DNA of 60,501 bases, from positions 1-60,501 of the IMG/VR virus record IMGVR_UViG_3300027996_000034; one strand, 5' to 3'. The translations under genes and the position numbers were made by a program. Positions 22,904 to 59,521 of this stretch are shown here, piece by piece. The notes under the pieces were generated by a model. That model had not been told where the DNA came from and did no database searches. It was given only the letters and a program-made list of their open reading frames with translations. The stretch is from a virus. The stretch's first letter is position 1. Each line of letters begins with the position of its first letter.

Positions 22904-22934
22904 ATTATATGATGAAAATATTATTTGGATTCAA
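22904..22934 (-). promoter_or_regulatory. Promoter, TTGAAT-N19-TATAAT
   Basis: TATAAT (22904-22909), 19-bp spacer, TTGAAT (22929-22934), overlapping the last codons of the RimK-like gene. It precedes the 40-residue basic protein and the small-protein run. Confidence 0.55.
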
Positions 22935-24381
22935 ATTTAATTCCACCATGTTTGTTTCCAATCGTATCATCTACTAAGAAATGTCCGTCAAAGTTTGTTA
23001 GTTTAAACGCCTTTGATGGACTAACTATAATTCCTAAACGATCCATGAACTTTCTATTAGCTAAAGCTGGAGTTGATTTAGCGGTTCTATCTATAATTGA
23101 TATATCTACTTTAGGAACTAATTTTCCTGCAAATATTACATCTCGGTGTATAATAGGACGTTCATGTGTGTTACCATCCGTTCCAATCGCATTAGAAGTT
23201 CCAATTATTTTATCTTTAAATTGCTTACCATTTACTTCCCATTCTAAGTATTTTCCATTAACTTCGAATTTATCTCCATGTATAGTCATTGAAGATGCAC
23301 CATTTCCAGTGTCCATTTTAATAACATAATCTCCAATACCTGGAATATTTATGCATTCTCTGAATCCACAATACATTGTTGGGTATGTCCAATTTTCTTT
23401 ATTTAGAATATAGTCTAAAACTATACTAACCACCGGTTTCCCAGTAGCTTCAGTAATACCTTTAGTTCCTGGTGATGCATTGACTTCTAATATATACGGT
23501 TTTTTGGTTTTTTTGTCGATGATCAAATCAACTGCACACCATGTACAATCCAACACTTTTGCAGCATCTTTAGATATTTGAATCATCTCATCTGTTAAAT
23601 TTACTTTTTGTATTCCTCCACCGATAGAATAATTAGTCCTAAAATCCTTTTTAGCAGAGGTTCTTTTCATTGCTGCAATAACTTCAGATTCTTCATCATT
23701 AGGATTATAAAACTTTTTAGAAAGAACATGAATCCTTAAATCACCATCAGCTGGTATCATTTCTTGTAGTAATATCTCACTTTTTCCACTAGACTTCCAA
23801 AGTGTTTGTAACACAGATTTTAACGATGCATATGAATCTACTTGCGAAACTCCAATACCTTGAGAGCCAGAAAGAAGCTTTATAATAACCGGAAATTGGC
23901 CTCCAATATTTTTTAATGCTTTATCAATACCTTCAACATCCGTAAGAATAGAATTTTTTGGGGTAGGTAATCCAGCAGCCTCTAATATTCTATTGGTTGT
24001 ATTTTTATTTTCACAGTTCATTGTAGAATCTAACGTATTTACACAAAAGAAATTAAATGATTCTAGATCTTCTAATAATTGTTGAGTATACGTACTAGAC
24101 ACAATGCCTCGTCTTGACATTATAACAGTATTTGATCGATTGATAGCAATGGGTTTTGTATCAGCATCTCCTATTTTAATATCATTTCTTTTATTAACAA
24201 ATTCTTTTATAAATGCGGTATTAACATCTAATGCATAACATGGAACATTTCGTTTTTCACAATCTGCTTTTATTGAATCAACTGTAGATGATTTTGAATC
24301 AAGATTTGATAATATAATTACTTGAACTTTATTAAAAGATAAAGCTTCAGTTATTAGTTCGTAGTTTCCAAAATGTTTCAT
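22921..24381 (-). CDS. RimK-like ATP-grasp ligase fused to a RimB-like retropepsin domain; likely packaged
   Basis: Three parts are visible in 486 residues. Residues 1-13 (MKHFGNYELITEA) resemble T4 capsid-targeting peptides (MKTYQEFIAEA) and contain an I-x-E/A prohead-protease site. Residues about 120-325 are an ATP-grasp domain of the RimK family (FPVIIKLLSGSQGIGV, LLQEMIPADGDLRIHVL, CAVDLIIDKKTKKPYILEVNAS cut to its core LEVNASPG). Residues about 345-460 match RimB-type aspartic proteases, with DTG at 357-359. RimK adds glutamates to ribosomal protein S6 and RimB trims them; here both are on one chain. The start overlaps the previous stop (ATGA). The target is not known; S6 or another host protein is inferred. 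Confidence 0.75.
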   Translation of the reverse strand: MKHFGNYELITEALSFNKVQVIILSNLDSKSSTVDSIKADCEKRNVPCYALDVNTAFIKEFVNKRNDIKIGDADTKPIAINRSNTVIMSRRGIVSSTYTQQLLEDLESFNFFCVNTLDSTMNCENKNTTNRILEAAGLPTPKNSILTDVEGIDKALKNIGGQFPVIIKLLSGSQGIGVSQVDSYASLKSVLQTLWKSSGKSEILLQEMIPADGDLRIHVLSKKFYNPNDEESEVIAAMKRTSAKKDFRTNYSIGGGIQKVNLTDEMIQISKDAAKVLDCTWCAVDLIIDKKTKKPYILEVNASPGTKGITEATGKPVVSIVLDYILNKENWTYPTMYCGFRECINIPGIGDYVIKMDTGNGASSMTIHGDKFEVNGKYLEWEVNGKQFKDKIIGTSNAIGTDGNTHERPIIHRDVIFAGKLVPKVDISIIDRTAKSTPALANRKFMDRLGIIVSPSKAFKLTNFDGHFLVDDTIGNKHGGIKFESK

Positions 24382-24854
24382 TTATTCTTTATATATTTAA
24401 GAAATGTTTTTCTATCTCTATTTATCAAACGTTTGCAATGGTCTGTGAATGCAACTGAATTATTAAGTACTAATTCGCTGACCTTTTTTCCATCATCAGT
24501 ATAAGCATCATAACAAGAATCACAACAAAAATTTGATATTTTAAAATCTTCCATACGTGATTTAATATCGGTTTTGCAATAAGAACATAACCATGGTATT
24601 ATTCTAATCTCATCTAAAAGTTTACGTTTATCTTTTATTTCACCATCAGTTGGATCAATGAAAAATTTGCTTTTATTTTTTTCATAGTTTTCTTTATCTA
24701 TTAACATAAATAAAGCTTTAACGAAAGTATCATCTTCATAATGCTTCTTTATAAGCGGATATCTTACTAATACTTCTACATGCTGTGGCTTCAATCCTTT
24801 TATTTTAATTCCACATCTAGTTAGACTACTAGGTTTGCCTCTATGAATTTCCAT
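24378..24854 (-). CDS. Zinc-finger hypothetical protein (158 aa)
   Basis: The 158-residue basic protein has a C-terminal metal site: CSYCKTDI and NFCCDSCYDAY (about 90-120), a CxxC...CxxC zinc finger. The N-terminal half is unrecognised. It overlaps both neighbours (the 853-residue internal protein by 14 nt, the RimK fusion by 4 nt), so the three genes form one translationally coupled unit downstream of the capsid gene. Confidence 0.6.
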   Translation of the reverse strand: MEIHRGKPSSLTRCGIKIKGLKPQHVEVLVRYPLIKKHYEDDTFVKALFMLIDKENYEKNKSKFFIDPTDGEIKDKRKLLDEIRIIPWLCSYCKTDIKSRMEDFKISNFCCDSCYDAYTDDGKKVSELVLNNSVAFTDHCKRLINRDRKTFLKYIKNK

Positions 24855-27402
24855 TTACTGCATTTATCCATTTATCCCTAAATGACATTGACTCTTCTAC
24901 CTTTTTATCCTTTTTATCCTTAATTTCTTTAAAGAAGTTTTTAGTTACATTAATAGTAGGATACATAGGATCTTTAGGTTTATCTAAAGTTATTTGATAA
25001 ACTTCTTCTTCGCCTTCTCGTCTAGGCATATCTCCTTCTGGCTCTCTTTCATTTTCTAAAAATGAATGCGTGATTTTTCCAGTAGCATTATTTAAGTGGC
25101 CAAGATCTTTATCCGACATGTTGCGTAATGATACTTTTTTATTCATAAGTGGATTATCTTTATTCTCATCCTCGCTTTTGTCCATTAACTCTTTAGCAAT
25201 GGTATCCTCATCTTTTGGAATATCAGCATCGTCATCAGATGGACATTCATCTTTACCATCGGCTTCTTCATCACCTTTGGCCTTTTCTTTATCCTCTTCA
25301 GAAACAAGTTCTTTTCGTTTATTAGATTCAACTAATACTGATCGATATTCAATTGATACTGATTCTCCGATTGTAGCAAGTTTTTCTTTTGCATCCTCTA
25401 ATTTTTTCTTTTCAGTCTCTAATTTATTCTTAGCTTCTTCCTTTTTAGGACCTTCTTCCGCGTTTTCAAAATCAGTTGTTGCCTTTTCAACCGATTTTTG
25501 CTGTAACTCAATCAATGCCTGTTGAGCCTCTTTTTTAGCTTCAAGGTCCTTTTTTGCAGCTTCAGTATCTTCAACGTTTTGAGCGGCTAATTTATCGGTA
25601 ACTCCAGTTTTCGCTTTTTCTTTTTCGGCATCCGTTGCATCTACTGCAGCTATTGCTGCAGCATGATTTTTATCTGCAGTTTTTCCAGCACCTTCAATTT
25701 TAGGAGTAATTGCCTTAGCTTTCTTTTCTTTTGCTGCAGCATTTTTAGCCAATCCTTTATCAACTTGTTGTTTATCGATCGCGGCTTTAGTCATTAATGC
25801 ATCTCGCTCTGCTTCTAATTCTTCTTTTTTATTAGCGCCTTTTATTTTTGCAGCATAACCGGCTTTTAATCCCATCGCCTTTCCTCCTAAAGAGGTGGCC
25901 TTACCATCTTTATCTATACCGCTAACTCGTTGAGCATCCTGTTCAGCAGCCTCTTGTTCTTTATCTAACTGTTCAATCTCTTTATCTAGATCAGCCTTTA
26001 TCTGTTTTCTTTTCTCTGAAGCTTTAGGATCCGGTACTGTTTTTGCTTCCTCTTCTTTAATATCCGTTCGAAGTGCTTCGATTTGATCATCAAATTCCTT
26101 AGCCTTAGCTTCAATAGCTTCAGGCGTAGTCAATTCAGCTCGCTCCTTTTTAAGTTCACGTGCCTCATCCTCCTTCTTTTCAATATCCTTTTTTATCTTT
26201 TCAACATCCTCTTTAGCTTTTTGAAGTTTTTTAGTTCCTTCATCATTCAATTGAGCCTTTTTATCAGTAAGTTTTTTCTTTTCTTTAGTCCAAGCTTCTT
26301 TCTTTTTTGGGTCTGTTTCTTTAGCATTTTTGTCAACACCTGCTTGGATTTGTTTATCTATAGCTTCAAGTTCTTTTTTTAATGCTTCTTCCTCTTCCTC
26401 TTGCTTAGTTTTTACTTTATCTTGTGCAACTTGCAAGTCACCTTCTTCTCCACCTTCTTCTCCACCTTCTTCTCCACCTTCTTCTCCAGCTGGTGGATCT
26501 GGTTCTGCTGGTGGATCGCCTCCTTCAGGTGTATCCGTTTCTCCATCTGCTGGTGGATCTGGTTCTCCACCTTCTCCGGCCTCTTTTACAGACTCTTCTG
26601 GTGGATCTGGTTCTGCTGGTGGATCGCCTCCTTCAGGTGTATCCGTTTCTCCATCTGCTGGTGGATCGCCTCCTTTAGGTGTATCCGTTTCTTCTTCTGG
26701 TGTTTCTTCAGGCTCTTTTGGTAATGGATGATTTTTTGGATCTAAATCATGTAATGTCTTTTTTAAATCGTATATTTCTTTATCCATATCTGCCATTGCA
26801 TTAGGACCAGTGGCCTTTTTCTTATCATCTTCAAGCTTTGCTATTTCAGCTTCCTTATCCTTTTTGAATTCCTCATATTCCTCTTTAGTGATTGTAGGAT
26901 TGAGATCGTTTTCTTCTTTATATGATTGAACATCCGCTTCAGTCTTGGCCAATTTAATATCTTTTACCGCCTCCCACGCTTTTCGAATTTTTTTCTTCTT
27001 AAATAAAAATGCAATATATGCACCAATTCCGACAGCTGCAATCCCTACACCAGCTGCAGTTGATTTAATTGCGGTAGATCCCATTTGACCAATATCATCA
27101 TCCCATCCTTCAGTAATAGATTCAAAGACTTCAAATCTTTCATGTATAATTAAATCAATATCAAGAGTTTCAAACCGATTTTCTTCAATTAAATCAGATT
27201 CAATTAATAAATGTTTAATAGTATCTAAAGATTCAAATAATCCTCCAGATCCATCACCAACCGATTGAAGTAATAAAAATTTAATGATATTTGCAAATTC
27301 ATCTTCATCTAATTGTTTCAAATCTTCTTTAGTAGCAAGCCGTCTAAGACCTATTACCGCCTCGTTTATCTTAGTAAAATCTTCTAGCGAAATTATGTTC
27401 AT
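24841..27402 (-). CDS. Long coiled-coil internal head protein with TM segment and Pro/Gly/Glu repeats
   Basis: This 853-residue protein starts MNIISLEDFTKINEAVIG, a capsid-targeting-like peptide with the site INE/A at 14-15. Residues about 110-135 form one hydrophobic segment (STAAGVGIAAVGIGAYIAFLF). Residues about 225-320 are low-complexity (TDTPEGGDPPAEPDPP twice, then GEEGG repeats), and about 320-680 is charged coiled coil rich in Lys, Glu and Ala. The C-terminus ends with another conserved-looking block (SFRDKWINAVNG). It follows the capsid gene. I infer a packaged or scaffold-associated protein. Confidence 0.55.
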   Translation of the reverse strand: MNIISLEDFTKINEAVIGLRRLATKEDLKQLDEDEFANIIKFLLLQSVGDGSGGLFESLDTIKHLLIESDLIEENRFETLDIDLIIHERFEVFESITEGWDDDIGQMGSTAIKSTAAGVGIAAVGIGAYIAFLFKKKKIRKAWEAVKDIKLAKTEADVQSYKEENDLNPTITKEEYEEFKKDKEAEIAKLEDDKKKATGPNAMADMDKEIYDLKKTLHDLDPKNHPLPKEPEETPEEETDTPKGGDPPADGETDTPEGGDPPAEPDPPEESVKEAGEGGEPDPPADGETDTPEGGDPPAEPDPPAGEEGGEEGGEEGGEEGDLQVAQDKVKTKQEEEEEALKKELEAIDKQIQAGVDKNAKETDPKKKEAWTKEKKKLTDKKAQLNDEGTKKLQKAKEDVEKIKKDIEKKEDEARELKKERAELTTPEAIEAKAKEFDDQIEALRTDIKEEEAKTVPDPKASEKRKQIKADLDKEIEQLDKEQEAAEQDAQRVSGIDKDGKATSLGGKAMGLKAGYAAKIKGANKKEELEAERDALMTKAAIDKQQVDKGLAKNAAAKEKKAKAITPKIEGAGKTADKNHAAAIAAVDATDAEKEKAKTGVTDKLAAQNVEDTEAAKKDLEAKKEAQQALIELQQKSVEKATTDFENAEEGPKKEEAKNKLETEKKKLEDAKEKLATIGESVSIEYRSVLVESNKRKELVSEEDKEKAKGDEEADGKDECPSDDDADIPKDEDTIAKELMDKSEDENKDNPLMNKKVSLRNMSDKDLGHLNNATGKITHSFLENEREPEGDMPRREGEEEVYQITLDKPKDPMYPTINVTKNFFKEIKDKKDKKVEESMSFRDKWINAVNGNS
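26440..26700 (-). repeat. Coding repeats in internal head protein
   Basis: Two kinds are present: a 12-bp unit (TTCTCCACCTTC type) repeated about four times around 26440-26487, encoding GEEG; and a roughly 70-bp unit encoding DGETDTPEGGDPPAEPDPP present twice (about 26500-26570 and 26610-26690), plus a partial third copy. All in frame; expansion by slippage or recombination is likely. Confidence 0.7.
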
Positions 27403-27494: not shown

Positions 27495-29201
27495 TTAAGC
27501 TAATTGACCAGCATCGTTTTGAACACCGAACGACATGTACATAGTTTGTGGATGGAATCCAGCCTCAACTAAAGCATATCTAGATTTAACAGCGATTTTT
27601 GGCGCCATTGTACCTTCAGCAATAGTTTGAACAGATTCAGCCATTAGATATGGCATAAACACTAGTCCAGGAGAGTTTCCGTCACCTTTTCTACCTACAG
27701 TGATTCGAGTATCACTCCAGCTCATATATGGATCAACATAAACAACCAATCCAGCTAAAGTACCGATAGGGTACAATGAACCAGTTTGTTGGTTTAATGT
27801 ATTCATCATTGGAGCAGGAACGAATCCAGCACAATCTTGTAGTCCAGAACCAACTTGTCCGTTTGTTACTACAAATGTAGCAGGTCCACGTCTTCCTCGG
27901 ATAGCAATCAAGTTTCCAACCGCAAGGATCTTAGACATGATTTTTCTCTGACGAGTATGTAAGTTCTCTGCAGCTGAGTTAGTCTCAGAAGAATTAACTT
28001 GTGGATTTTGATCAAATAGACCAGGTAAAGCATCCATTGGGAATACTGAATTTCCACCAGTTACCCAATCAGATCCTCTAGAATCTAGAGTTGTTAATTG
28101 TGTTTGAGTAGAATAAAGACCACCAGTGGTAGTTCCAAGTAACAAGTTAAATTGAACGTTTTGCGTTGCAACAACTTGACCATGGTTAGTATAACCTAGT
28201 TTTCTAATTCTTGAAAGAATGTTCTTATTAATAGATTGAGTTAACTCGTTAATAAGTACTGACTCAACTTGAGCAACAGCATCTATACCGAATTGTTTCA
28301 AATCTTGAACTTGTTCTCTAGTAACTGCTGCAGCAACTTGGAAAGTTTGTGCCTCAATTGACTTATTGAATAAGCTTAAGTTCATTACATTCTCTTGATT
28401 AGATTCACCTTCTAGTCTTGACATCGGTTCGTTAGTATCATAACGATTTGATGAGAATCCTTGAACGTGATCTTCTAGAGCTTTTACTAAAACTGGTAAA
28501 CCAGCTAAAGTTACAATACCAGTACCACCACTTGCCCAAGTAAATGTTGTTCCTGCAGTTAAACCAGCAGCAACAGTTTGAGTAGCGTTAGCCATAGTAT
28601 CAACTCTAATAATATCGAATGCATCGATTCTAGATTCACCAACGTACATACCAGTAATACCTGTAGAAGTAACAACTACTTCTCCAGCAGATGGTGCAGT
28701 TGTTATGGCCCCTCCTGCAGGATCTGGTGTAATAGTACCATTAGATTTGATTAATAGTGGCATGTCCGGAGAAGCACCTCTATTTTGTGGAACTGGAAGA
28801 GCTCCGGTTTGTCCGATTGAAGGAACAAGTCCTCCACCGTAAACGAAGTCTAAGTATGTCAACACACCCATCGGTCCGTTCATTGGTACTACAGGTACTA
28901 GATCTAAACCAACAGTCTGTGCAGCAACTTGCATAGCAAGCGGAAGAAGAGTGTAAGGTTTATCACCGGAACCAGTAGTTTGAGTACCAAATCCAGATTG
29001 CAATCCAGGATCACCTGGGAATCTAGTAGCACCCATACCATTAACAGAACCAACTGTTGCAAAAGCATTATTCTCATACAACTCGTGGTTATGACAGTAT
29101 TTAGACATCCATTCTAATTTTCCTTTGTCCTCAATACCAGTAGTGGACTCGATAATTGGAGACCATTTTCCGTATATTTCGGATTCATTAATTAAATTCA
29201 T
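27495..29201 (-). CDS. gp23: Major capsid protein (gp23-like)
   Basis: At 568 residues it matches T4 gp23 (521) in size and layout: a cleavable N-terminus, then AMQVAAQTVGLDLVPVVPM and MGVLTYLDFVYGGG, the long E-loop/P-domain with NRYDTNEPMSRLEGE, VLINELTQSINKNILSRIRKL cut to its core INELTQSINKNI, and the C-terminal GLVVYVDPYMSW, GRKGDGNSPGLVFMPYL, KSRYALVE typical of gp23. Prohead sites are visible near the start (LINE/S at 6-7, IIE/S, and LYE/N before NNAFATVG). The ATVGSVNGMG region recurs in the polyprotein at 54247-56742. It forms the capsid lattice. Confidence 0.93.
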   Translation of the reverse strand: MNLINESEIYGKWSPIIESTTGIEDKGKLEWMSKYCHNHELYENNAFATVGSVNGMGATRFPGDPGLQSGFGTQTTGSGDKPYTLLPLAMQVAAQTVGLDLVPVVPMNGPMGVLTYLDFVYGGGLVPSIGQTGALPVPQNRGASPDMPLLIKSNGTITPDPAGGAITTAPSAGEVVVTSTGITGMYVGESRIDAFDIIRVDTMANATQTVAAGLTAGTTFTWASGGTGIVTLAGLPVLVKALEDHVQGFSSNRYDTNEPMSRLEGESNQENVMNLSLFNKSIEAQTFQVAAAVTREQVQDLKQFGIDAVAQVESVLINELTQSINKNILSRIRKLGYTNHGQVVATQNVQFNLLLGTTTGGLYSTQTQLTTLDSRGSDWVTGGNSVFPMDALPGLFDQNPQVNSSETNSAAENLHTRQRKIMSKILAVGNLIAIRGRRGPATFVVTNGQVGSGLQDCAGFVPAPMMNTLNQQTGSLYPIGTLAGLVVYVDPYMSWSDTRITVGRKGDGNSPGLVFMPYLMAESVQTIAEGTMAPKIAVKSRYALVEAGFHPQTMYMSFGVQNDAGQLA

Positions 29202-29230: not shown

Positions 29231-30991
29231 TTATTTATTAAAGCGTCTTTTAAGTTCTTCCGTAACTGTGTCCATGTAAGCAGATGAAGTTTCGTAGTTA
29301 GAAGAATCATCAGATTCTTTTACTACTACTGTTTCGTTTATTTGCTCAGACGGATTATAAGCCCTTAGCTCACGGGTTGACCAGAAATGATCGATCTTGT
29401 ACTGTGTATCAAGAGTTCTCACCGATGCTTGAGCAGTAATAGAAGATTTTTGTGATTCGTTTATAGAATCCCAAGAACTTTTATATTTGCTCGGCATATT
29501 TTTTAGCCAATCGATTTTTGCTTCAGGCTCAACAAATACTGATTCCCATATTGCAGATGCATCAGTTGAACCGAACCACTCATTATTCTCAAATGTTCTA
29601 ATAACTTTCGCCTTAGTCTCATCATCAAATGATTTGTATTCAGTTCTCCTATCTTCATTTACAAAATGTAAGAAGTGAGTATTTGCAGAAGTTTCGTCCA
29701 CCTTTTGCTTCTTAGCGGATTCAACCAACGCTGAAATTTTCTCGTTTAATTCATTTTTGAATGTATTAGTTTCTATAATTAATTCATCAGCAGTTTCTTT
29801 AACTGTTTCTGATTCATTAATTGTTTCTCCAACATTTTTGGATTTGAAATTTTCATTCATTGTTTTAGAAACATAATCTTGGTATTTACCTAGATTTTCT
29901 ACATTATCTTTAACATACTCGGTATAATTAGCAACGGCATCAACACCTTCCATAACGTAATTAGAATATTCAATTACTTTATCTGTTTGTTCGTTTACAT
30001 AATCTTGATATCCGAAACGAGTATTTACATTTTCAGATATATGTTTAGAGTACTCAATGTTTTGATCGGTTTTAAGACCTACATATTCTGCATAATCTTT
30101 TACCTTTCCTAAATTTTCTATAATATAATCATTATGTGAAATAAGGCTATCAACATTTTCTGATAGATTCTCTACATAATTTCCGATTTGATTTACTCGT
30201 TTTGCAATAGCTTCTGAGTATTTAACTAAATCTGTATTTGCGGAAGCTTCATTTACCTTTTCAACTTCAGATTTTAATGAGTCAAAATTCTCTTTAACGA
30301 TTTTTGAATATTCGTTAAAATCTTCGACTGAAATAAAATTGCTGTTAGAATTAGACTCAGCTTCATTTATTGTTTCTTTTGGTGTAGTATTATCCATTGC
30401 TATTAATTCTTTTTGAATATCTGTATTAGTTTCTTCTATATATCCATTGATCTCGAAAATTCCTAGATTATCATCATCAACAAATCCATACTGTTCATTA
30501 ACTCGGTTGAGTTCTGCGTTTTCAAAACCAGGATCTGCAACTAAATCGTATGTAAATAATTTTTTAATTTTAACGTGGCCATTTTCTTGAACCACACCAG
30601 CAGCTCTACTAGAAATGTGTATTGGAATGCCACCATCAACAAGTGCTTGAGCTTGTTTTCCTGCGGTAGTATCTAATAACCGGATTTTTCCTCTAACAAC
30701 CTTGTTAGCTTTGTCATATGTTATTTCCTCAATAACATGAGATACATTTTGTAGAGAAATGTCAAATTGTTTTGGGTGATCTAATTCACCAAGAAGCTTA
30801 CCGCTTTTGAGTTTTTCTTGAAGACCTTCAATATGAGGCATCAACTCTTTCTCATCGTATATACGATTGTTCTTATTTTTTTTACCTATCTCAGAAAATA
30901 TTCCTTCTAATACATACTTGTCAGCGCCGGTTCCATTGGCTTCAAGTATACTAGTGGATCTTTCTAAGACTAATAATTTTGCGTCATTCAT
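29231..30991 (-). CDS. gp21: Prohead protease fused to scaffold (gp21-gp22-like)
   Basis: Residues about 1-175 are a gp21-type prohead serine protease (S77 family): EGIFSEIGKKNKNNRIYDEK, GELDHPKQFDIS with the catalytic His, and IPIHISSRAAGVV with the catalytic Ser. In T4 gp21 (protease) and gp22 (scaffold) are separate genes; here one 586-residue chain continues with a long coiled coil (about 215-420) in which Y-x-x-Y-V units recur every ~14-16 residues, then a C-terminal tag AYMDTVTEELKRRFNK. Self-cleavage sites (ILE/A at 17-18, INE/A, VNE/A) would free the protease from its scaffold. It sits between portal and capsid genes. Confidence 0.85.
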   Translation of the reverse strand: MNDAKLLVLERSTSILEANGTGADKYVLEGIFSEIGKKNKNNRIYDEKELMPHIEGLQEKLKSGKLLGELDHPKQFDISLQNVSHVIEEITYDKANKVVRGKIRLLDTTAGKQAQALVDGGIPIHISSRAAGVVQENGHVKIKKLFTYDLVADPGFENAELNRVNEQYGFVDDDNLGIFEINGYIEETNTDIQKELIAMDNTTPKETINEAESNSNSNFISVEDFNEYSKIVKENFDSLKSEVEKVNEASANTDLVKYSEAIAKRVNQIGNYVENLSENVDSLISHNDYIIENLGKVKDYAEYVGLKTDQNIEYSKHISENVNTRFGYQDYVNEQTDKVIEYSNYVMEGVDAVANYTEYVKDNVENLGKYQDYVSKTMNENFKSKNVGETINESETVKETADELIIETNTFKNELNEKISALVESAKKQKVDETSANTHFLHFVNEDRRTEYKSFDDETKAKVIRTFENNEWFGSTDASAIWESVFVEPEAKIDWLKNMPSKYKSSWDSINESQKSSITAQASVRTLDTQYKIDHFWSTRELRAYNPSEQINETVVVKESDDSSNYETSSAYMDTVTEELKRRFNK

Positions 30992-31047: not shown

Positions 31048-32628
31048 TTATTCTTCTTCTGATGCCATATCATCGAGTTTCTTTTGTTCACGTTCCTTGA
31101 GCGTTTGATTTGATTTTATATCAGCCTCACTTAAGTCCATGAATCGTCGAATTAACCATTCAGAAGAGAAATATTTGATTTCGTTACCTTCAGGATCGAA
31201 GTCTACAAGACCATCTTTCATTGCGGTTACAAAGTCTATTCGTTTTTGAAGAAGTTCCATTTCTTTCATTTCTTCAAATATATTGTATTTGTTAAATTTA
31301 ACCCCAATCTGTGCTTTAAATGAATCATCATTCATTAAGTCAGGATAATCTAGAGTCATTTGGATCCATAGAGGTTTTACGATTATTTCTTGGAATGTTG
31401 ATCTTAATCTATTTATAAATCTACCAAATTTGATTTCATCTCGAGTCATTCCTTCAGCATTGATTTCCCATGATGGTGGGTTTTCAACATCAAAACGATT
31501 CATTGGAATTTTAGATACTCGTCTAAGATTTTCTTTAAAGTAATTTAAAGAACTTGTATCAGAAAGATCAGGACCATCACCACCGATTGTTTCGATTTGT
31601 GGAGAACCTGCGTCACCTTCAGGTAACCAATACTCTTTATTGAAAGGCATCATCGGACGACCATTTGTTTTCAATTCACCGCTATCATAATCAAAATCTA
31701 CTTGTTCTCGATAGTTTTGCATTAAAACACCAAGTGATTGTTTTGCTCTAGTTTTTGATTTACCACCAATTGGTATAATAAATTTAGTTTTGAATGATGA
31801 ATTAACAACCGCCCATATAATTCTAGAATGTTCCATAATTCTAAGAAGGTTAAATGATCTTATAAGTCTTTCAACATAAGAAATTCTAGTTGGAGAATTC
31901 ATATTTGCATATGATATGTAAATAATTTGAGAATCATAAAGAGATCTTGCTTTTGCAGGTATATCTTTAAATTGTTTCCAAACTCGTTTACCTTGATCGT
32001 CTAATCCAGGTTCTAATGTAATTGGATCTAGCTCTTTAAACCCTATTACATTTCGTTGTTCATTATCATATATTATCTCAAATGCGAGATATCCATCAAC
32101 TAGCCATTTTCTAAAATATGACCATGCCGTTATATCATTATTAAAACCAAAATATTGGTAAATTCGTTTATAATTGATTGATATAGCTCCTCTGATTTCT
32201 TCGACCTTTTCTTCTGCTAAAAGATCATCATCAAAAAGTATAGGATCTGCGAAATAGTTTTTATCATCATATACAATAACTTCATCACAAAGAGTGTCTA
32301 ATATTTCTTCAATTTCATCTTGTACTGCAAATCTTCGAAGTTCCTCTCGTTTCTTTGGATATGATTTATCAAATACTGATATAGATTTCTTTAATGCTAT
32401 ATCTGATAAAGCTAAGTTAGCAAATAATGCATAATCATCGTAATCTCCTCCAACTAAACCTCTTGGGTCATAAGTCCATCCGAACTGATCTTCAACAATA
32501 CCGACTGCTTGTGAATTACGAAGAACCATATCATCGTATTTCATACCAAATGAACTTAATTGTTTAAGTGCATTTGAGGCAACGAAACCTCTTCCTGAAG
32601 TATCATTCCTTTCTACAAATCCTGCCAT
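31048..32628 (-). CDS. gp20: Portal protein (gp20-like)
   Basis: The 526-residue protein equals T4 gp20 (524) in size. Recognisable blocks are RRFAVQDEIEEILDTLCDEVIV, given here by its core EIEEILDTLCDE, the wing GYLAFEIIYDNEQRNVIGFKELDP (core AFEIIYDNE), KTKFIIPIGGKS, and LRRVSKIPMNRFDVENPPSW with EGMTRDEIKFGRFINRLR, typical of T4-like portals. The C-terminus is acidic. It forms the dodecameric vertex through which DNA enters and leaves and where prohead assembly starts. A late box lies 22-31 bp upstream. Confidence 0.93.
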   Translation of the reverse strand: MAGFVERNDTSGRGFVASNALKQLSSFGMKYDDMVLRNSQAVGIVEDQFGWTYDPRGLVGGDYDDYALFANLALSDIALKKSISVFDKSYPKKREELRRFAVQDEIEEILDTLCDEVIVYDDKNYFADPILFDDDLLAEEKVEEIRGAISINYKRIYQYFGFNNDITAWSYFRKWLVDGYLAFEIIYDNEQRNVIGFKELDPITLEPGLDDQGKRVWKQFKDIPAKARSLYDSQIIYISYANMNSPTRISYVERLIRSFNLLRIMEHSRIIWAVVNSSFKTKFIIPIGGKSKTRAKQSLGVLMQNYREQVDFDYDSGELKTNGRPMMPFNKEYWLPEGDAGSPQIETIGGDGPDLSDTSSLNYFKENLRRVSKIPMNRFDVENPPSWEINAEGMTRDEIKFGRFINRLRSTFQEIIVKPLWIQMTLDYPDLMNDDSFKAQIGVKFNKYNIFEEMKEMELLQKRIDFVTAMKDGLVDFDPEGNEIKYFSSEWLIRRFMDLSEADIKSNQTLKEREQKKLDDMASEEE

Positions 32629-35791: not shown

Positions 35792-35801
35792 TTTATATAT
35801 C
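35792..35801 (-). promoter_or_regulatory. Late promoter box GATATATAAA (489-aa gene)
   Basis: Minus-strand AAAGATATATAAACAAT, 29-38 bp before the start at 35763. It overlaps the last codons of the methyltransferase gene. Confidence 0.55.
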
Positions 35802-36578
35802 TTTGATTTTCTTTTGAATAATATATTCGTTGTTGATATCACCAGCTCCACCGTTAGAAAATGCTTTAGCTTCGTTCTTAATTGTTCCGATAACATTATA
35901 ATTTTCGAACAAACCATCGTCAAGCATTCCATCAACTGCTTTTTTAACACCAGGCGATTCTTTATGATCCATATAATCGTCGAATATTATTAGGCCACCA
36001 GGATTAACTGTTGCTTCATAGTTTTTAAAGTCTCGCTCAACCATATGTTTTGCATGTGATCCATCTATAAAGAATACATCAGCACCACCTGCCTTTTCAA
36101 TTGCAGCACAAGATTCTTTAATGATTTTAGGGTTATCTGATAGTCCAACAAATTTTTCTAAGGTTTGACCTTCGCTGATATATTTTGCTGTGTTATTATC
36201 GAACATTTTTTCTTGACCGGATTTAGCTTTGAATGGATCGATAGAAATATGAGATTTACCTTTTTTATTTTGAAGCATTAAGCACATAGATCCTCCACAA
36301 AAACTTCCAATTTCAGCAAATGTTTTATAGTCTTCTCCGAGCATTTCTGATAATGGATATGTTATATGAAAGTGATGGTGAAACGTATTTCCTTCCATAT
36401 CTTCACTTATTGATTGAACCATTTCAGAAGATTTCTTATATGATGGATGTTTAAGAATATCAGATTCTGTAAACATTTTAGTAGAAGATTTACCTTCATT
36501 CAATCCCCATTGTTCTACATCAGGGAATTGTTTATCATGCATTTCATTAAGAAAGTCTTTAAATGATAGTAATTTCAT
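35793..36578 (-). CDS. SAM-dependent methyltransferase with capsid-targeting-like N-terminus
   Basis: Residues about 84-230 form a class I methyltransferase: FAEIGSFCGGSMCLML (glycine-rich SAM loop), HISIDPF (acidic after strand 2), FFIDGSHAKHMVERDF and NPGGLIIFDDYMDHKE (motif IV/post). It resembles the Methyltransf_24 type that modifies small molecules or saccharides. Residues 1-28 (MKLLSFKDFLNEM, then GLNE/G) look like a capsid-targeting peptide with two prohead-protease sites, so the enzyme may be packaged, trimmed and injected. It is flanked by internal head protein genes. Substrate unknown. Confidence 0.7.
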   Translation of the reverse strand: MKLLSFKDFLNEMHDKQFPDVEQWGLNEGKSSTKMFTESDILKHPSYKKSSEMVQSISEDMEGNTFHHHFHITYPLSEMLGEDYKTFAEIGSFCGGSMCLMLQNKKGKSHISIDPFKAKSGQEKMFDNNTAKYISEGQTLEKFVGLSDNPKIIKESCAAIEKAGGADVFFIDGSHAKHMVERDFKNYEATVNPGGLIIFDDYMDHKESPGVKKAVDGMLDDGLFENYNVIGTIKNEAKAFSNGGAGDINNEYIIQKKIKDI

Positions 36579-36587
36579 ATTTGTATA

Positions 36588-38864
36588 TTATTTGTTAAAT
36601 CTATATTTAAGACCTTCAGTTACTGCATCCATATACGCATTTGATGTTGATTCTTCTTGTGGCTCTTCTACTTGAATTTCATCACCAGTTTTTGTATCTG
36701 TAATATTTTCAGTATCTTCAACCTCTTCACCATCATCGTCGATTGTAACCTCTTTAGTTTCTTTAACTGATTCGTTTTTCATATCCGAATAAAATTCTTT
36801 GAACATCTTTTCAAGTCCATCAAATTTTGCTCCTTGATCTTTAACGAAATCTTTTGCTTTTGCAATAAAATCCTTTTCATCTTTGGCCTCTTTAGCAAGT
36901 AAATGAAGTTCACTCATTGCACCATCATTAACCATTCTAGTAAGATCTTCGTTAGTTGTTGATTCGTCTAGTAAAATTTTCTTTAATTTTGCAAGTTTCT
37001 TAGAATCCTTTTCTAGTTCTTTAGTTGCAGCTGCAATTTTGGAAGAAGCATCATCACCACCTTCAGTAGCATCTTCAGGAGATTCACCATCTTTTATTTT
37101 AGATTCTGGAGAATCTTCACCGTCTGGTGCTGAATCATCAGGTCCTTGAGTTTCATCCTCATCACCATCTGCAAGATCATCGATCATATCATCAATATCT
37201 TCTCCATCACCTTCTTCAACTTGTAAAGTTTTTTTGTTAAGTTTTTCATTAACACGTTTAGCATCTAAATAAAATTCATTATTCTCAAATGTACCAGTTC
37301 TTAAATACTTACTTAAATCTGTAAAGTAACCTAATTCCTCTGGTGTCAATTTAGATTTGATATATTTTGCAATTTCCGCCATTTCTTTTGTACGTAATTT
37401 AGAGGCTGCTCGATTTTTTGCATTTGAAGTTCCCATATACGGTGTTAATTCCGCATACATTTTTTTCAGAACATCATCATTTTCAAATTTCTTAACGATT
37501 GGTTCTAATATTGCTTTTTTATCAGCTAATTTATCAGCAGCTCTTTTAGCAGCTTTTTTAGCATCGGCCTTTTCGGCAGCATTTACTATTGCCTTTCCAG
37601 CAACGATTGCAGCAACCTGAGCACCGTTGACTAATGCAATAACACCGACAACACCTAATACAATTCCACCAGCTATTGTTAAAACACCAACGGCTTCATC
37701 AATATTTTCATCATCATTAACCACATCACTACCTTGTAGTCCTAAAAGAAATGCAGCAGTAGCATCTTCAAATGTTTTCTTTTTTGCTTCATTAACTGAT
37801 TCTCTAATTCCAAACTTAGCTAGAATTCGAATAGCAGGAACCGCATTATCTTGATCACCATCACCCATGATTACTAATTTACCATTAAGTGTTCCAAATT
37901 CGATCTTATTTATCGTTAGCTCCTTATATAACTTTTTATTTACCGGGTCTTTTATTTCGAATTCCCAATCATAATTATTTCCTTTATCTAGTTTTTTAAC
38001 TTCGAAACCTTCATTAACTTCATCGTCTTCGTTAATATCTTTTAGAAACTTAGTTGCATTTTCTTCAAATGTAAGTTTTGCTTTTTTAGCTTCATAAACT
38101 GCAGCTCCATCAGGATCATAAGAAAATACCGCAGTACCACCTCTTCCATCTAATGCGATTGCATCTTCATTTGGATCTAATTCTTCAGCAGCACCAGAAT
38201 CATCATATTCCGCTAGATCTTTAACTTTACCTATTGCAATAACATTCCAAGTATCACCATTGTAATCAGTAGCTTTATCACCGATTTTAACTTTCTTAAA
38301 AGGTTTGATTTTTTTACCTTCATTAATTGATTCTTCAGATTCATTTAGGAAGTAATAAACTTCAATCCCATAATCATCAACTCTTAATACGTTTAATTTT
38401 TTACTGTAAGTTATATTACCAGCAACTTCAGCAGATAATTTAGGAAGTTTCTTATGAACCATTTCCCAATCCGATCCTTTTTTGTATTTTTCATACTCAT
38501 CACCAGATTCACTATCAGTTGCTTTAACATCTTTTATATTTTTAACTTTAAAGAATTTAGCAATTTCCTTTTTAACCGCAGTAGGAAAACTTGATTCTTC
38601 AGCATTGTACACATCTTCATTAACTGATTCGTTAACTTTCTTTTCTATGGTTATAGTTTCTGCCATTTCTTGCATAACTTTATCTATTCTCCAAGGAACA
38701 ACACCGATAGATGTTAAATAAGTTCGTATAATAGATTCATTCTTTCCTTCACCAACAAGTTTCTGTACTAGCGGTTTTAAAGAACCTGGTCCATAAAAGT
38801 TATATTCGCCTTTAGTAACGAGATTTTCATTTACAAAATCTTCAAAGCTTTTTAATTTACTCAT
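36588..38864 (-). CDS. Internal head polyprotein with prohead-protease sites and capsid-binding-like tag
   Basis: The 758-residue protein starts MSKLKSFEDFVNEN (targeting-like, VNE/N) and contains spaced sites NESVNE/D (83), ESINE/G (182), DEVNE/G (285), ESVNE/A (359) and ENIDE/A (390), which would release five or six small domains. After 390 comes a hydrophobic stretch (VLTIAGGIVLGVVGVIALV), a Lys/Ala helix, an acidic linker and a coiled coil. The last 18 residues (SNAYMDAVTEGLKYRFNK) nearly match the scaffold C-terminus at 29231. It is probably core protein: built into the prohead by its tag and then cut. Confidence 0.65.
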   Translation of the reverse strand: MSKLKSFEDFVNENLVTKGEYNFYGPGSLKPLVQKLVGEGKNESIIRTYLTSIGVVPWRIDKVMQEMAETITIEKKVNESVNEDVYNAEESSFPTAVKKEIAKFFKVKNIKDVKATDSESGDEYEKYKKGSDWEMVHKKLPKLSAEVAGNITYSKKLNVLRVDDYGIEVYYFLNESEESINEGKKIKPFKKVKIGDKATDYNGDTWNVIAIGKVKDLAEYDDSGAAEELDPNEDAIALDGRGGTAVFSYDPDGAAVYEAKKAKLTFEENATKFLKDINEDDEVNEGFEVKKLDKGNNYDWEFEIKDPVNKKLYKELTINKIEFGTLNGKLVIMGDGDQDNAVPAIRILAKFGIRESVNEAKKKTFEDATAAFLLGLQGSDVVNDDENIDEAVGVLTIAGGIVLGVVGVIALVNGAQVAAIVAGKAIVNAAEKADAKKAAKRAADKLADKKAILEPIVKKFENDDVLKKMYAELTPYMGTSNAKNRAASKLRTKEMAEIAKYIKSKLTPEELGYFTDLSKYLRTGTFENNEFYLDAKRVNEKLNKKTLQVEEGDGEDIDDMIDDLADGDEDETQGPDDSAPDGEDSPESKIKDGESPEDATEGGDDASSKIAAATKELEKDSKKLAKLKKILLDESTTNEDLTRMVNDGAMSELHLLAKEAKDEKDFIAKAKDFVKDQGAKFDGLEKMFKEFYSDMKNESVKETKEVTIDDDGEEVEDTENITDTKTGDEIQVEEPQEESTSNAYMDAVTEGLKYRFNK

Positions 38865-54246: not shown

Positions 54247-56742
54247 TTATTCTCCCAATGCTTCGATATCCCATTGAATTCTTTCTAATGGATCTTCATC
54301 ATTTGTTCTGTTCTTCTTCACCCAATCAACAAGACCTCTTTCCATAGTAGCATTTTGTGCCATATCATATGAATGTTTCCATCCATCGCCGGAAGCCATA
54401 TCTTCAATCCATTGATCATATTTCTTTTGATTCCATTTTACTGGCTTTATCTTCTTAGCATGGGGTCCATTACCTAAAGTTGATTTGATTGCATTGTAAT
54501 GATTCGGGACAAATACATCCACTGCCCAATCTTCGTCTCTTTTATTACCATTCCAATACTTAATCTTCTTTCTGAATCTTTTTAATTCGTAATCAGCATT
54601 TTCAATCTTTTCTTTTCTAGTAATGCCACCTCGTTTATATCCAAATGATAACTTCATATCATCTAATATATCTGGATCTGTTTCGAAATGAAGGTCTTTA
54701 ATATCAACATTATCATATTGGCCTTCATTAACTGATTCTTCATTAACATTAACTCCCTTTCTTTTAGCATACTTTTCAACATCTCTTAAAAGACCTAGTA
54801 GTTTATTTTTATCTAAATCTTCTTCATCGTTATTCAGTTCTTTTTGAAGATTATTCATTAAACTCTTCATGTATTTTTTTACACCGGAATCTAAATCACC
54901 CTTATCTATGTTGGTTTGTATAAGGTTAACAAGTTCTAAAACATCTTCCTTTTTTAGATTTTTAGCAGCTTGTTTATCCTTGAACTTCTTTTTATAGTGT
55001 CGAACTACGTCTCCCCAACTATCTCCAGGAAAGAACGCTCCTGGACTGACAATCATGCCGGGACCCATCACAGCAAATATTACACCTGCCATTAACCCAA
55101 CTCCTCCAGCTAAAGCTAATAAAGGTTGCCACCATTCAAAACCTTCATTAACTGAGTCATGAGCTTGTATTGAAGTTTCGATTGCTTCTTTAGCCTTTTT
55201 AATATCACCATTAAAGTATGCTTTTGCTAATTGATACAAAACTATATCTGATGGTATTTTACCAGATTTTCCAATTTTAGAAATTTCATCATCACCTTTA
55301 CCTTCATTAACTGATTCTGTTATAGAGTTACCAGTCTTTTTTACTTGATGTCCATCCATTGCATAGAATCGCATATCTTGGAAGTCAACTAAATATTGCT
55401 CATCCGATTCATAGCTTATTAATAGTCCTTTTTCACCTTTCTTAATAGTCATTTTAGTTCCAAAATAATCGAAGGTTTTTGTTGGTGCAATCCACTCAAC
55501 CTCTTCGTATTTTTTACCTTCATTAACTGATTCTTTCAAATCTGTTAATTTTATTACACGTTTCTTACCATCGAAAGAAACAAAATAAGATTTATCATCT
55601 GCTGCCGTTAAGTGATATCCGAATGATTTACCCCATACCTCTTTTGCCTTTTTAAGATCTGAGCCATAAAAATATTTTTCAAGACCCGATGTACTTTTTA
55701 TTGTTTTAGGAACTTTTACCTTGCCTTCATTTAAAGATTCTCCTACAAATGCATTGAACTTCAAAAAATTGTAAATATTTTTTGCTTGTTTTTCATTTTC
55801 CTCTTCATCATCAGTTAATTCGCTTGATGCTGCTAAATCACCAGAACCAGTTTCCTGAGTTGAAAATTCTGCTTGAGTTCCAGGATTTCCAGGCAATGAA
55901 ACATTACCCATTCCATTAACACTTCCTGGAGTTGCCATTGCATTATTTTCTTCAATCGCATATCTCATAGCTTCTGCATATGCAATTGCTTCTTCAAGAT
56001 GTTTATTTGATGATTCTTTTACCGCCATACCACCATTCTTTTTCATATATTTCTTAACGGTGGATCTCCATTTTGTATCAACATTTGTAACTGTAACTCG
56101 ATTACCAACTTGATCGCCTATACCAATTGCAGAATTTTCAATATCTAAATCAAATTGACGTGCACTTTCTTCATCAGGGAATTCAAATATTACACTTAAA
56201 CCTTCATCGACCGATTCATCAAACAATGTTTTTGCACGTGGAAATGTTAAAGATTTACCAAGTTCTCTATCATGATCCTTTTTCATCTCTAGATAATTCC
56301 AAGGAGATATCCAACCAGTTTCTTGCGCTAATTGAACTGCAAGATCAAAGGGTTTCATAGGCTTTGATAAAGTAACATTGAATCTAGGTGAAGAGTATCT
56401 ACCTTCCATATCACCTTCCACTATTTTATATTTTCCTTTTGGGATAACTTTAATTCGTTCGAAAGGTTTTCCAATTCCAACTATACTTACCGTTTTATGA
56501 TCTTTGTATCTTTTTTCTGCGTTCTTTTTTATTGGATCATCATATGCTGCTTCATCTACCGAATCTTCTAATTTATTTGGTAGCGTTTCTTCTGGAGTTT
56601 CTGCGTAATCTTTCAAATCGGCTTCTTTCTTTTTGGATAAATCTCTTATTTTCTGATCAACCGTGGATGCATCAACTTCACCTCGCTTAACTGCTAAGGC
56701 TAGTCCGAATAATTTCCGTTGAGCTTTTGATACTGCTGGCAT
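54247..56742 (-). CDS. Large internal head polyprotein cut at [VIL]-[ND]-E/[GA] sites
   Basis: The 831-residue protein is divided by repeated ESVNEG-like sites: VDE64/A, VDE180/G, IEE265/N, LNE339/G, VNE408/G, VNE480/G, VNE533/G, VNE673/G. These fit the gp21 rule [LI]-x-E. Module 1 (MPAVSKAQRKLFGLALAVKR...) resembles the small phage DUF3008 type. Module 4 starts NNAMATPGSVNGMG, matching the capsid protein N-terminus. Modules 5 and 6 look like small beta barrels. Module 8 has two hydrophobic segments (540-570) and a helical bundle; module 9 is a basic alpha/beta domain. I infer nine packaged products. No late box was found upstream, so it may share the promoter at 57343. Confidence 0.65.
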   Translation of the reverse strand: MPAVSKAQRKLFGLALAVKRGEVDASTVDQKIRDLSKKKEADLKDYAETPEETLPNKLEDSVDEAAYDDPIKKNAEKRYKDHKTVSIVGIGKPFERIKVIPKGKYKIVEGDMEGRYSSPRFNVTLSKPMKPFDLAVQLAQETGWISPWNYLEMKKDHDRELGKSLTFPRAKTLFDESVDEGLSVIFEFPDEESARQFDLDIENSAIGIGDQVGNRVTVTNVDTKWRSTVKKYMKKNGGMAVKESSNKHLEEAIAYAEAMRYAIEENNAMATPGSVNGMGNVSLPGNPGTQAEFSTQETGSGDLAASSELTDDEEENEKQAKNIYNFLKFNAFVGESLNEGKVKVPKTIKSTSGLEKYFYGSDLKKAKEVWGKSFGYHLTAADDKSYFVSFDGKKRVIKLTDLKESVNEGKKYEEVEWIAPTKTFDYFGTKMTIKKGEKGLLISYESDEQYLVDFQDMRFYAMDGHQVKKTGNSITESVNEGKGDDEISKIGKSGKIPSDIVLYQLAKAYFNGDIKKAKEAIETSIQAHDSVNEGFEWWQPLLALAGGVGLMAGVIFAVMGPGMIVSPGAFFPGDSWGDVVRHYKKKFKDKQAAKNLKKEDVLELVNLIQTNIDKGDLDSGVKKYMKSLMNNLQKELNNDEEDLDKNKLLGLLRDVEKYAKRKGVNVNEESVNEGQYDNVDIKDLHFETDPDILDDMKLSFGYKRGGITRKEKIENADYELKRFRKKIKYWNGNKRDEDWAVDVFVPNHYNAIKSTLGNGPHAKKIKPVKWNQKKYDQWIEDMASGDGWKHSYDMAQNATMERGLVDWVKKNRTNDEDPLERIQWDIEALGE

Positions 56743-59047: not shown

Positions 59048-59521
59048 TTATGAGGTCATCGTAGTAAACCAAGACTCATCTGCTGAAGCTGAAAAATTCT
59101 TTTTGATATATTTTTCCATATCTTTGTATCCTTCAGGATCTTTCTTTTGCATAATATCTAATACCTTTCCTAATCCCATTTGCATGACTTTATCGTCAAA
59201 TTCTTCATGGTCTTCGTTTTTAGCAGCCTCTTCAATTTCAATTTCGATTTCTTCTTCACCTTCAGATGAATCTTTCATTTTTTTAGCAAGCGTAGCGGTT
59301 TTCTTTTTCTTTGCTTTATTTTCAGCTTCTTTCTTTCCATCTTCAGCTTCTGCATCTAATTCTTCTGGTGGTGTAGTTGGGCCTTTTGAAGCATCAGCCA
59401 TATCATCAGCTAATTGTTCTTCGTCATCTTTAGGTGCACCCATTTTGTTGATAGTTTTTTCAATTTCTTTAGCAGTTTTTGATTCTGTTAAGAATTGATC
59501 ATACGACTTAATGTGTTTCAT
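59048..59521 (-). CDS. Acidic internal head protein with capsid-targeting-like N-terminus (157 aa)
   Basis: The protein starts MKHIKSYDQFLTESKTAKE, closely resembling T4 internal-protein leaders (MKTYQEFIAEA), with LTE/S at 13-14 as the predicted cleavage site. The rest is highly acidic and Lys-rich, with an IEIEIEE run and a C-terminal helix (KVMQMGLGKVLDIMQ). Its stop lies 1 nt from the next start. A GAATATATAA box precedes it. A packaged, DNA-compatible internal protein is the likely role. Confidence 0.6.
   Translation of the reverse strand: MKHIKSYDQFLTESKTAKEIEKTINKMGAPKDDEEQLADDMADASKGPTTPPEELDAEAEDGKKEAENKAKKKKTATLAKKMKDSSEGEEEIEIEIEEAAKNEDHEEFDDKVMQMGLGKVLDIMQKKDPEGYKDMEKYIKKNFSASADESWFTTMTS

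Follow-up and report, generated by a model that had tools for sequence, protein, structure and literature searches.

We describe a predicted phage enzyme that joins a RimK-family glutamate ligase and a retropepsin on one chain, behind a leader of the kind that targets proteins to T4-type heads. The gene belongs to a large T4-like phage, the IMG/VR virus record IMGVR_UViG_3300027996_000034, of which the whole stretch of 60,501 nucleotides (hereafter the window) was analysed. Our preferred reading, with a probability of roughly 0.6, is that the protein is a head-internal effector that is targeted by its leader, cut, packed and ejected, and that resets the glutamylation of a target before phage gene expression. 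Packaging into the head is well supported, while we infer the cleavage at E12|A13, the ejection, the catalytic activity and the target. RimK, RimBK-type hybrids and T4-type packaged effectors are each known; their combination in a phage is new, and the papers searched do not describe a phage protein in which RimK is fused to a retropepsin.

The protein is the product of a 486-amino-acid open reading frame (ORF) with an ATG start, which runs on the minus strand from 24381 down to 22921; the plus strand over 22921-24381 is full of stops. It begins with MKHFGNYELITEALSF and has the following parts:

24346..24381, minus strand: N-terminal leader, residues 1-12 (MKHFGNYELITE), recognized by sequence, disorder in the structural model, motif enrichment and conservation.
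23392..24324, minus strand: RimK-type pre-ATP-grasp and ATP-grasp ligase, approximately residues 20-330, recognized by PF08443, TIGR00768, Foldseek and invariant residues.
23005..23376, minus strand: C-terminal retropepsin (PF05618/A2-like), approximately residues 336-459, recognized by profiles, an AlphaFold model and Foldseek.
23305..23313, minus strand: catalytic DTG, residues 357-359, followed by an invariant Asn360, from the alignment of 49 proteins.

A profile search of IMG/VR found relatives in at least 541 stretches, of which 80 were kept. The comparison set consists of 49 dereplicated full-length proteins, including those of the phages YerA41 and Mosig, and neighbouring genes were surveyed at 46 loci (L numbers below denote individual loci). 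The starts of the relatives were picked by their Shine-Dalgarno sequences and a few are misplaced (L042, L085). Both domains, with their key residues, are present in all 49 proteins.

By profile and by model, the ligase half belongs to the RimK-family alpha-L-glutamate ligases, and its predicted activity is to attach tails of glutamate to proteins. Residues 124-323 match the RimK ATP-grasp family PF08443 with 101 bits, and the window protein scores 145.4 bits against TIGR00768 (RimK family alpha-L-glutamate ligase), above the curated cut-off of 143.4; the homologues from Mosig and YerA41 reach 173.8 and 168.6. The residues K126, K168, F247, R248, N250, D285, E299 and N301 are unchanged in 49/49 and the motif DFRxN (FRxN) is kept. 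A full-length AlphaFold model, built from an alignment of 41 relatives, has a predicted local distance difference test score (pLDDT) of 85.5. Its best Foldseek matches are the RimK crystals 7qys, 5zct and 5zk6, with template modelling (TM) scores of 0.86-0.90 over the target, and RimK with RpsF is among the best-matching structures. Homologues labelled 'glutathione synthetase' or 'eu-GS' can be reassigned, as the RimK models score far higher.

The protease half is recognized best from the family as a whole. The window sequence alone matches the RloA2 structure 9g59 only weakly (E 0.016, residues 341-459), while a family profile finds 9g59 at 1.1e-10, Lpg0085 (2pma) at 2.5e-10 and RloA (9g58) at 8.7e-10. 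An AlphaFold model of this domain alone (pLDDT 92) matches the same three structures, followed by HIV-1 protease. The first three positions of the active-site motif D-T/S-G-A/S/T are kept (D357 and G359 in 49/49, T358 in 48/49 with Ser in the other), and the fourth is Asn360 in every protein. Judged by this conservation, the protease is likely to be catalytically active. DTGN and LxNR stand where RloA has DTGA and, further along, an LMG-type loop, and these motifs mark the protease as a distinct subfamily. An earlier, sequence-only reading of this DNA had placed a ligase and a retropepsin on one chain, which both the profiles and the folds bear out. It had also proposed a profile comparison of the protease region with PF05618, and this gave matches in 17 of 41 members, the best at 4e-9. 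Its description of the protease as RimB-like stands for the PF05618/retropepsin profile and the fold, but not for RimB proper, as described below.

T4 head proteins are cleaved after L/I-x-E, and packaging needs no more than some ten leader residues (PMC9026906). We turned this into a rule, [LI]xE|[AGS] near the N-terminus, that is, the published motif plus a small residue after the cut. The predicted cut by a prohead protease falls after Glu12 (..LITE|A) and would leave Ala13 as the new N-terminus; in the full-length model residues 1-15 form a disordered tail (pLDDT <50) and the first strand starts at residue 20. The rule holds for 35 of the 49 family proteins, against 98 of 709 other ORFs that share their loci (Fisher p 5e-18). 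It also holds for 4% of internal windows, and shuffled sequences gave a mean of 2.6 and a maximum of 9 out of 49, so that together with the enrichment these controls rule out a chance likeness. The T4-like capsid-targeting leader with a cut before Ala13, which the sequence-only reading had proposed, is thus supported by the family. Close relatives keep the leader as MKHFENFQLITEA, MRHFENFQMITEA and MKHFEKYQMITEA, and more widely the leaders vary a good deal in sequence (NYYDEFVNEA, VLDFWSFLNEA, MKHIKTYIQLKESLNEA) around a constant cut motif. Nor is the leader a by-product of a location in the head cluster: the motif is found in 24/28 members where no major capsid protein (MCP) gene was found within about 8 kb, and in 11/21 near one. 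Since it is kept away from the capsid genes, it is a property of this protein and not of its neighbourhood.

Evidence from virions comes from YerA41. Its g112 ('Ribosomal protein modification protein*'), which from gene order we infer to be the homologue YerA41_066, was identified in purified virions by liquid chromatography-tandem mass spectrometry (PMC7354516 Table 3). This supports the suggestion, made from the window sequence, of a packaged enzyme. The YerA41 protein has the leader LLNKFEAADE (…NKFE|A), matching MSRISDLNKKFEADES, ..LKKFESEE, MSRISQLNKKFEAADES and MSKISQMNQKFESDN of proteins 205, 206, 208 and 209, which are annotated as structural, virion proteins and whose genes lie near one genome end. 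Only 6 of 263 YerA41 ORFs have the motif [KQN]FE[AS] within their first 28 residues. The YerA41 enzyme therefore carries that phage's own leader type, one shared with four virion proteins and rare among its ORFs.

The fusion gene of the window lies beside head genes, with the window's own prohead protease and MCP 3-7 kb upstream:

24378..24854, minus strand: upstream gene of 158 amino acids, overlapping the ligase start by 4 nucleotides (ATGA); this neighbour is kept in the window's clade, at 13 of 46 loci.
24841..27402, minus strand: acidic, Glu-rich head-cluster protein of 853 amino acids with the leader ...FTKINEA, overlapping the 158-amino-acid gene by 14 nucleotides.
27495..29201, minus strand: major capsid protein gp23 (PF07068, 3.2e-36).
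29231..30991, minus strand: gp21-type prohead protease (S77) fused to a core/scaffold-like region (PF03420, 9e-11; phrog_207, 2e-38).
31048..32628, minus strand: portal protein gp20 (phrog_213, 8e-70).

The S77 protease at 29231-30991 is likely to be the enzyme that cuts the leader. The nearest named relatives of the MCP are those of the Prevotella Lak phages, Tenacibaculum phage pT24 and Sphingomonas phage PAU. A count of the T4-type late promoter TATAAATA is not informative, because 7 were found in the window and 14 are expected.

On the preferred reading, the fusion protein would be made along with the head proteins, and residues 1-12 would direct it to the prohead core, where the phage S77 protease would cleave after Glu12. 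The mature two-domain enzyme would be packed with the DNA and then ejected; because it lies behind a removable head-targeting signal, it probably reaches the inside of the host along with the phage DNA. There the RimK domain would extend a protein tail with L-glutamate, and the retropepsin fused to it would trim such tails, or stimulate the ligase as RimB does. In this way the glutamylation state of the target could be reset before any phage gene is expressed. In bacteria RimK alters translation, and RimB trims poly-glutamate and stimulates RimK (PMC11957791). The best-known cellular substrate of this pair is the ribosomal protein S6 (PMC11957791), and host S6 is the best-known candidate target. 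E. coli has RimK and lacks RimB (PMC11957791); in hosts like this one, an eraser on the same chain could therefore make a difference.

Several observations weigh against this reading. The window protein scores 75.1 bits against the S6-ligase equivalog NF007764 (RimK proper), far below the cut-off of 331. Likewise, the window's protease domain gave no match at E<=1 to the RimB equivalog NF052261 (cut-off 200 bits), the best of four phage domains listed being that of L085 with 19.1 bits, and the active site reads DTGN where RloA has DTGA. A tested bacterial RimBK failed to glutamylate the S6 of P. fluorescens (PMC11957791). As for the leader, one clade, of the L062-L078 type, starts with FVFKG or FVFQG and has no cut motif, and the YerA41 leader lacks the strict [LI]xE. 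Finally, the virion detection concerns the YerA41 homologue, not the phage of the window, and contamination is possible since that preparation contained 63 proteins, some of them enzymatic (PMC7354516).

Leaders of this kind are found on other proteins too. In the window, the products of 35793-36578, 36588-38864, 59048-59521 and 24841-27402 start with the similar leaders MKLLSFKDFLNEM, MSKLKSFEDFVNEN, MKHIKSYDQFLTES and MNIISLEDFTKINEA; the first resembles a methyltransferase. Further packaged proteins in the window are therefore likely. The long proteins at 36588-38864 and 54247-56742 contain five internal [LIV]NE[AGS] motifs each, and from these motifs look as if they were cut several times during head maturation. 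Phage PAU, whose MCP is related to that of the window, has two annotated 'internal capsid proteins' with the leader ..LYExKLNEA. In the L062-L078 clade the adjoining proteins retain leaders of the FINES/FLNEE type. In L029, L032, L080 and L085, runs of consecutive genes encode products that all have leader-like starts (MKHIKxYEQFLNEG, MRLxxYLTE...), and these may possibly be islands of packaged effectors.

What the ligase modifies can be read differently. It might make free poly-glutamate, or its substrate might be a small molecule or some other protein of the host, with S6 uninvolved. RimK has relatives such as MptN, CofF and LysX, and the window protein scores higher against the MptN model (121.7 bits) than against the S6-ligase model, all of these scores being below the models' own cut-offs; E. 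coli RimK makes poly-glutamate in vitro, as cited in PMC11957791. However, RimK is the nearest structural match of the full-length protein, and the protease joined to it is similar to a deglutamylase family; we regard this reading as rather unlikely.

Another candidate substrate is encoded nearby. In 18/46 loci a hyperacidic protein (93-268 amino acids, 30-78% Asp+Glu) is encoded no more than 3 kb from the fusion gene, while none of 378 similar-sized ORFs further away is equally acidic. The C-termini of these proteins often read V(L/I)xFxDFF, which is leader-like. The genes come in two arrangements. They are convergent, about 0.2-0.3 kb past the end of the ligase gene, in L015, L028, L030, L031, L035, L040, L051, L054, L055, L056 and L070, and lie on its upstream side in L062, L064, L065, L066, L071, L072 and L078. 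Six of the latter loci (L062, L065, L066, L071, L072 and L078) also have, just downstream and on the opposite strand, a conserved gene for a class-II glutamine amidotransferase-like protein (MCGILxA..., about 470 amino acids) that converges on the ligase gene. This proximity suggests that the hyperacidic neighbour is a substrate of the phage's own, an inhibitor or a packing partner, possibly co-packaged.

On the first of these options the enzyme, packaged or active in the prohead, would write or trim poly-glutamate stretches of an acidic core or partner protein, and it would serve to assemble the head or pack the DNA instead of acting in the host. RimB cleaves internal poly-glutamate (PMC11957791), and in the window the nearest acidic candidate, the Glu-rich head protein of 853 amino acids (25% Asp+Glu), is encoded two genes upstream of the fusion. 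That said, most other loci, those of the window's clade included, have no hyperacidic gene next to the fusion gene, which is also found in replication-gene clusters. Moreover, a protein search returned no match for the fusion from the uncultured phage LR756500, whose MCP is 50% identical, so the gene is dispensable for such heads. We consider this explanation improbable.

Less probable still is a conventional enzyme that is synthesized in the course of infection and works inside the cell, its leader likeness coincidental or its virion association weak: several members lie among DNA-replication genes, the YerA41 gene belongs to the middle expression phase (PMC7354516) and one clade is without the cut motif, but the motif enrichment and a YerA41 homologue that has a phage-specific leader and is found in virions argue against it.

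Members of the family occur widely among large uncultivated phages, several of them in DNA-replication gene clusters. In the phage collection searched, the fusion is confined to three named records: Pelagibacter phage Mosig and the Yersinia ruckeri phages YerA41 and GN1. Terminase and sheath assignments in the neighbour survey were disregarded as artefacts of a reused profile. A wider and more tentative proposal, which we think somewhat less likely than an even chance, is that many large phages carry in the virion a ready-made, reversible glutamylation enzyme, writer and eraser in a single protein, and deliver it along with further leader-tagged effectors; on entry it would reset the ribosome through S6, or some other target in the host, and some of the phages would add a hyperacidic partner from the same locus. 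If true, virus-delivered protein glutamylation acts before transcription starts, and is a chemistry absent from the packaged effectors known in phages, Alt among them. The role of RimK in ribosome control is debated, and a phage-installed ligase-protease would make it directly testable.

The closest named proteins, YerA41_066 (g112) and Mosig_00005, share the two-domain architecture at 31-34% identity. They are annotated only as a structural protein or glutathione synthetase, and their leaders are of their own types (YLEE|A in Mosig). The proteins of cyanophages and Methylophilales phages (phrog_2599) share the RimK domain alone, without the retropepsin; that of Melnitz also starts leader-like, with MTQKFSQFITEE. 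Three Flavobacteriales proteins (L095, L096 and L098; 393-403 amino acids), apparently chromosomal, have a C-terminal retropepsin with the DTGN and LxNR of the phage family behind a shortened, apparently degenerate ligase part.

Among bacterial systems, the Pseudomonas RimK and RimB (rimABK) likewise pair a RimK-family glutamate ligase with a retropepsin-like domain. These are separate proteins, as the sequence-only reading took to be normal, whereas the phage version is fused ligase-first, phage-borne, equipped with a leader and a DTGN site, and scores too low for the S6-ligase and RimB equivalogs. The two activities can also occur in one protein, however, because bacterial RimBK hybrids have been published. 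DP2392 of Desulfotalea psychrophila has both domains on one chain, and its protease acts on glutamylated S6, while S6 glutamylation by DP2392 was not observed (PMC11957791). In the bacterial hybrids RimB is N-terminal (PMC11957791) and no capsid leader is reported; in the phage protein RimK comes first and the retropepsin is C-terminal.

For the mode of delivery, close parallels are IPI-III and Alt of T4. These have a leader ending in L/I-x-E that is cut by an S77 prohead protease, and they are packaged and ejected, as is proposed for the phage protein. Alt is also a host-modifying enzyme. The difference is in the chemistry, which is ADP-ribosylation or nuclease inhibition in T4 and would be glutamate ligation and proteolysis here.
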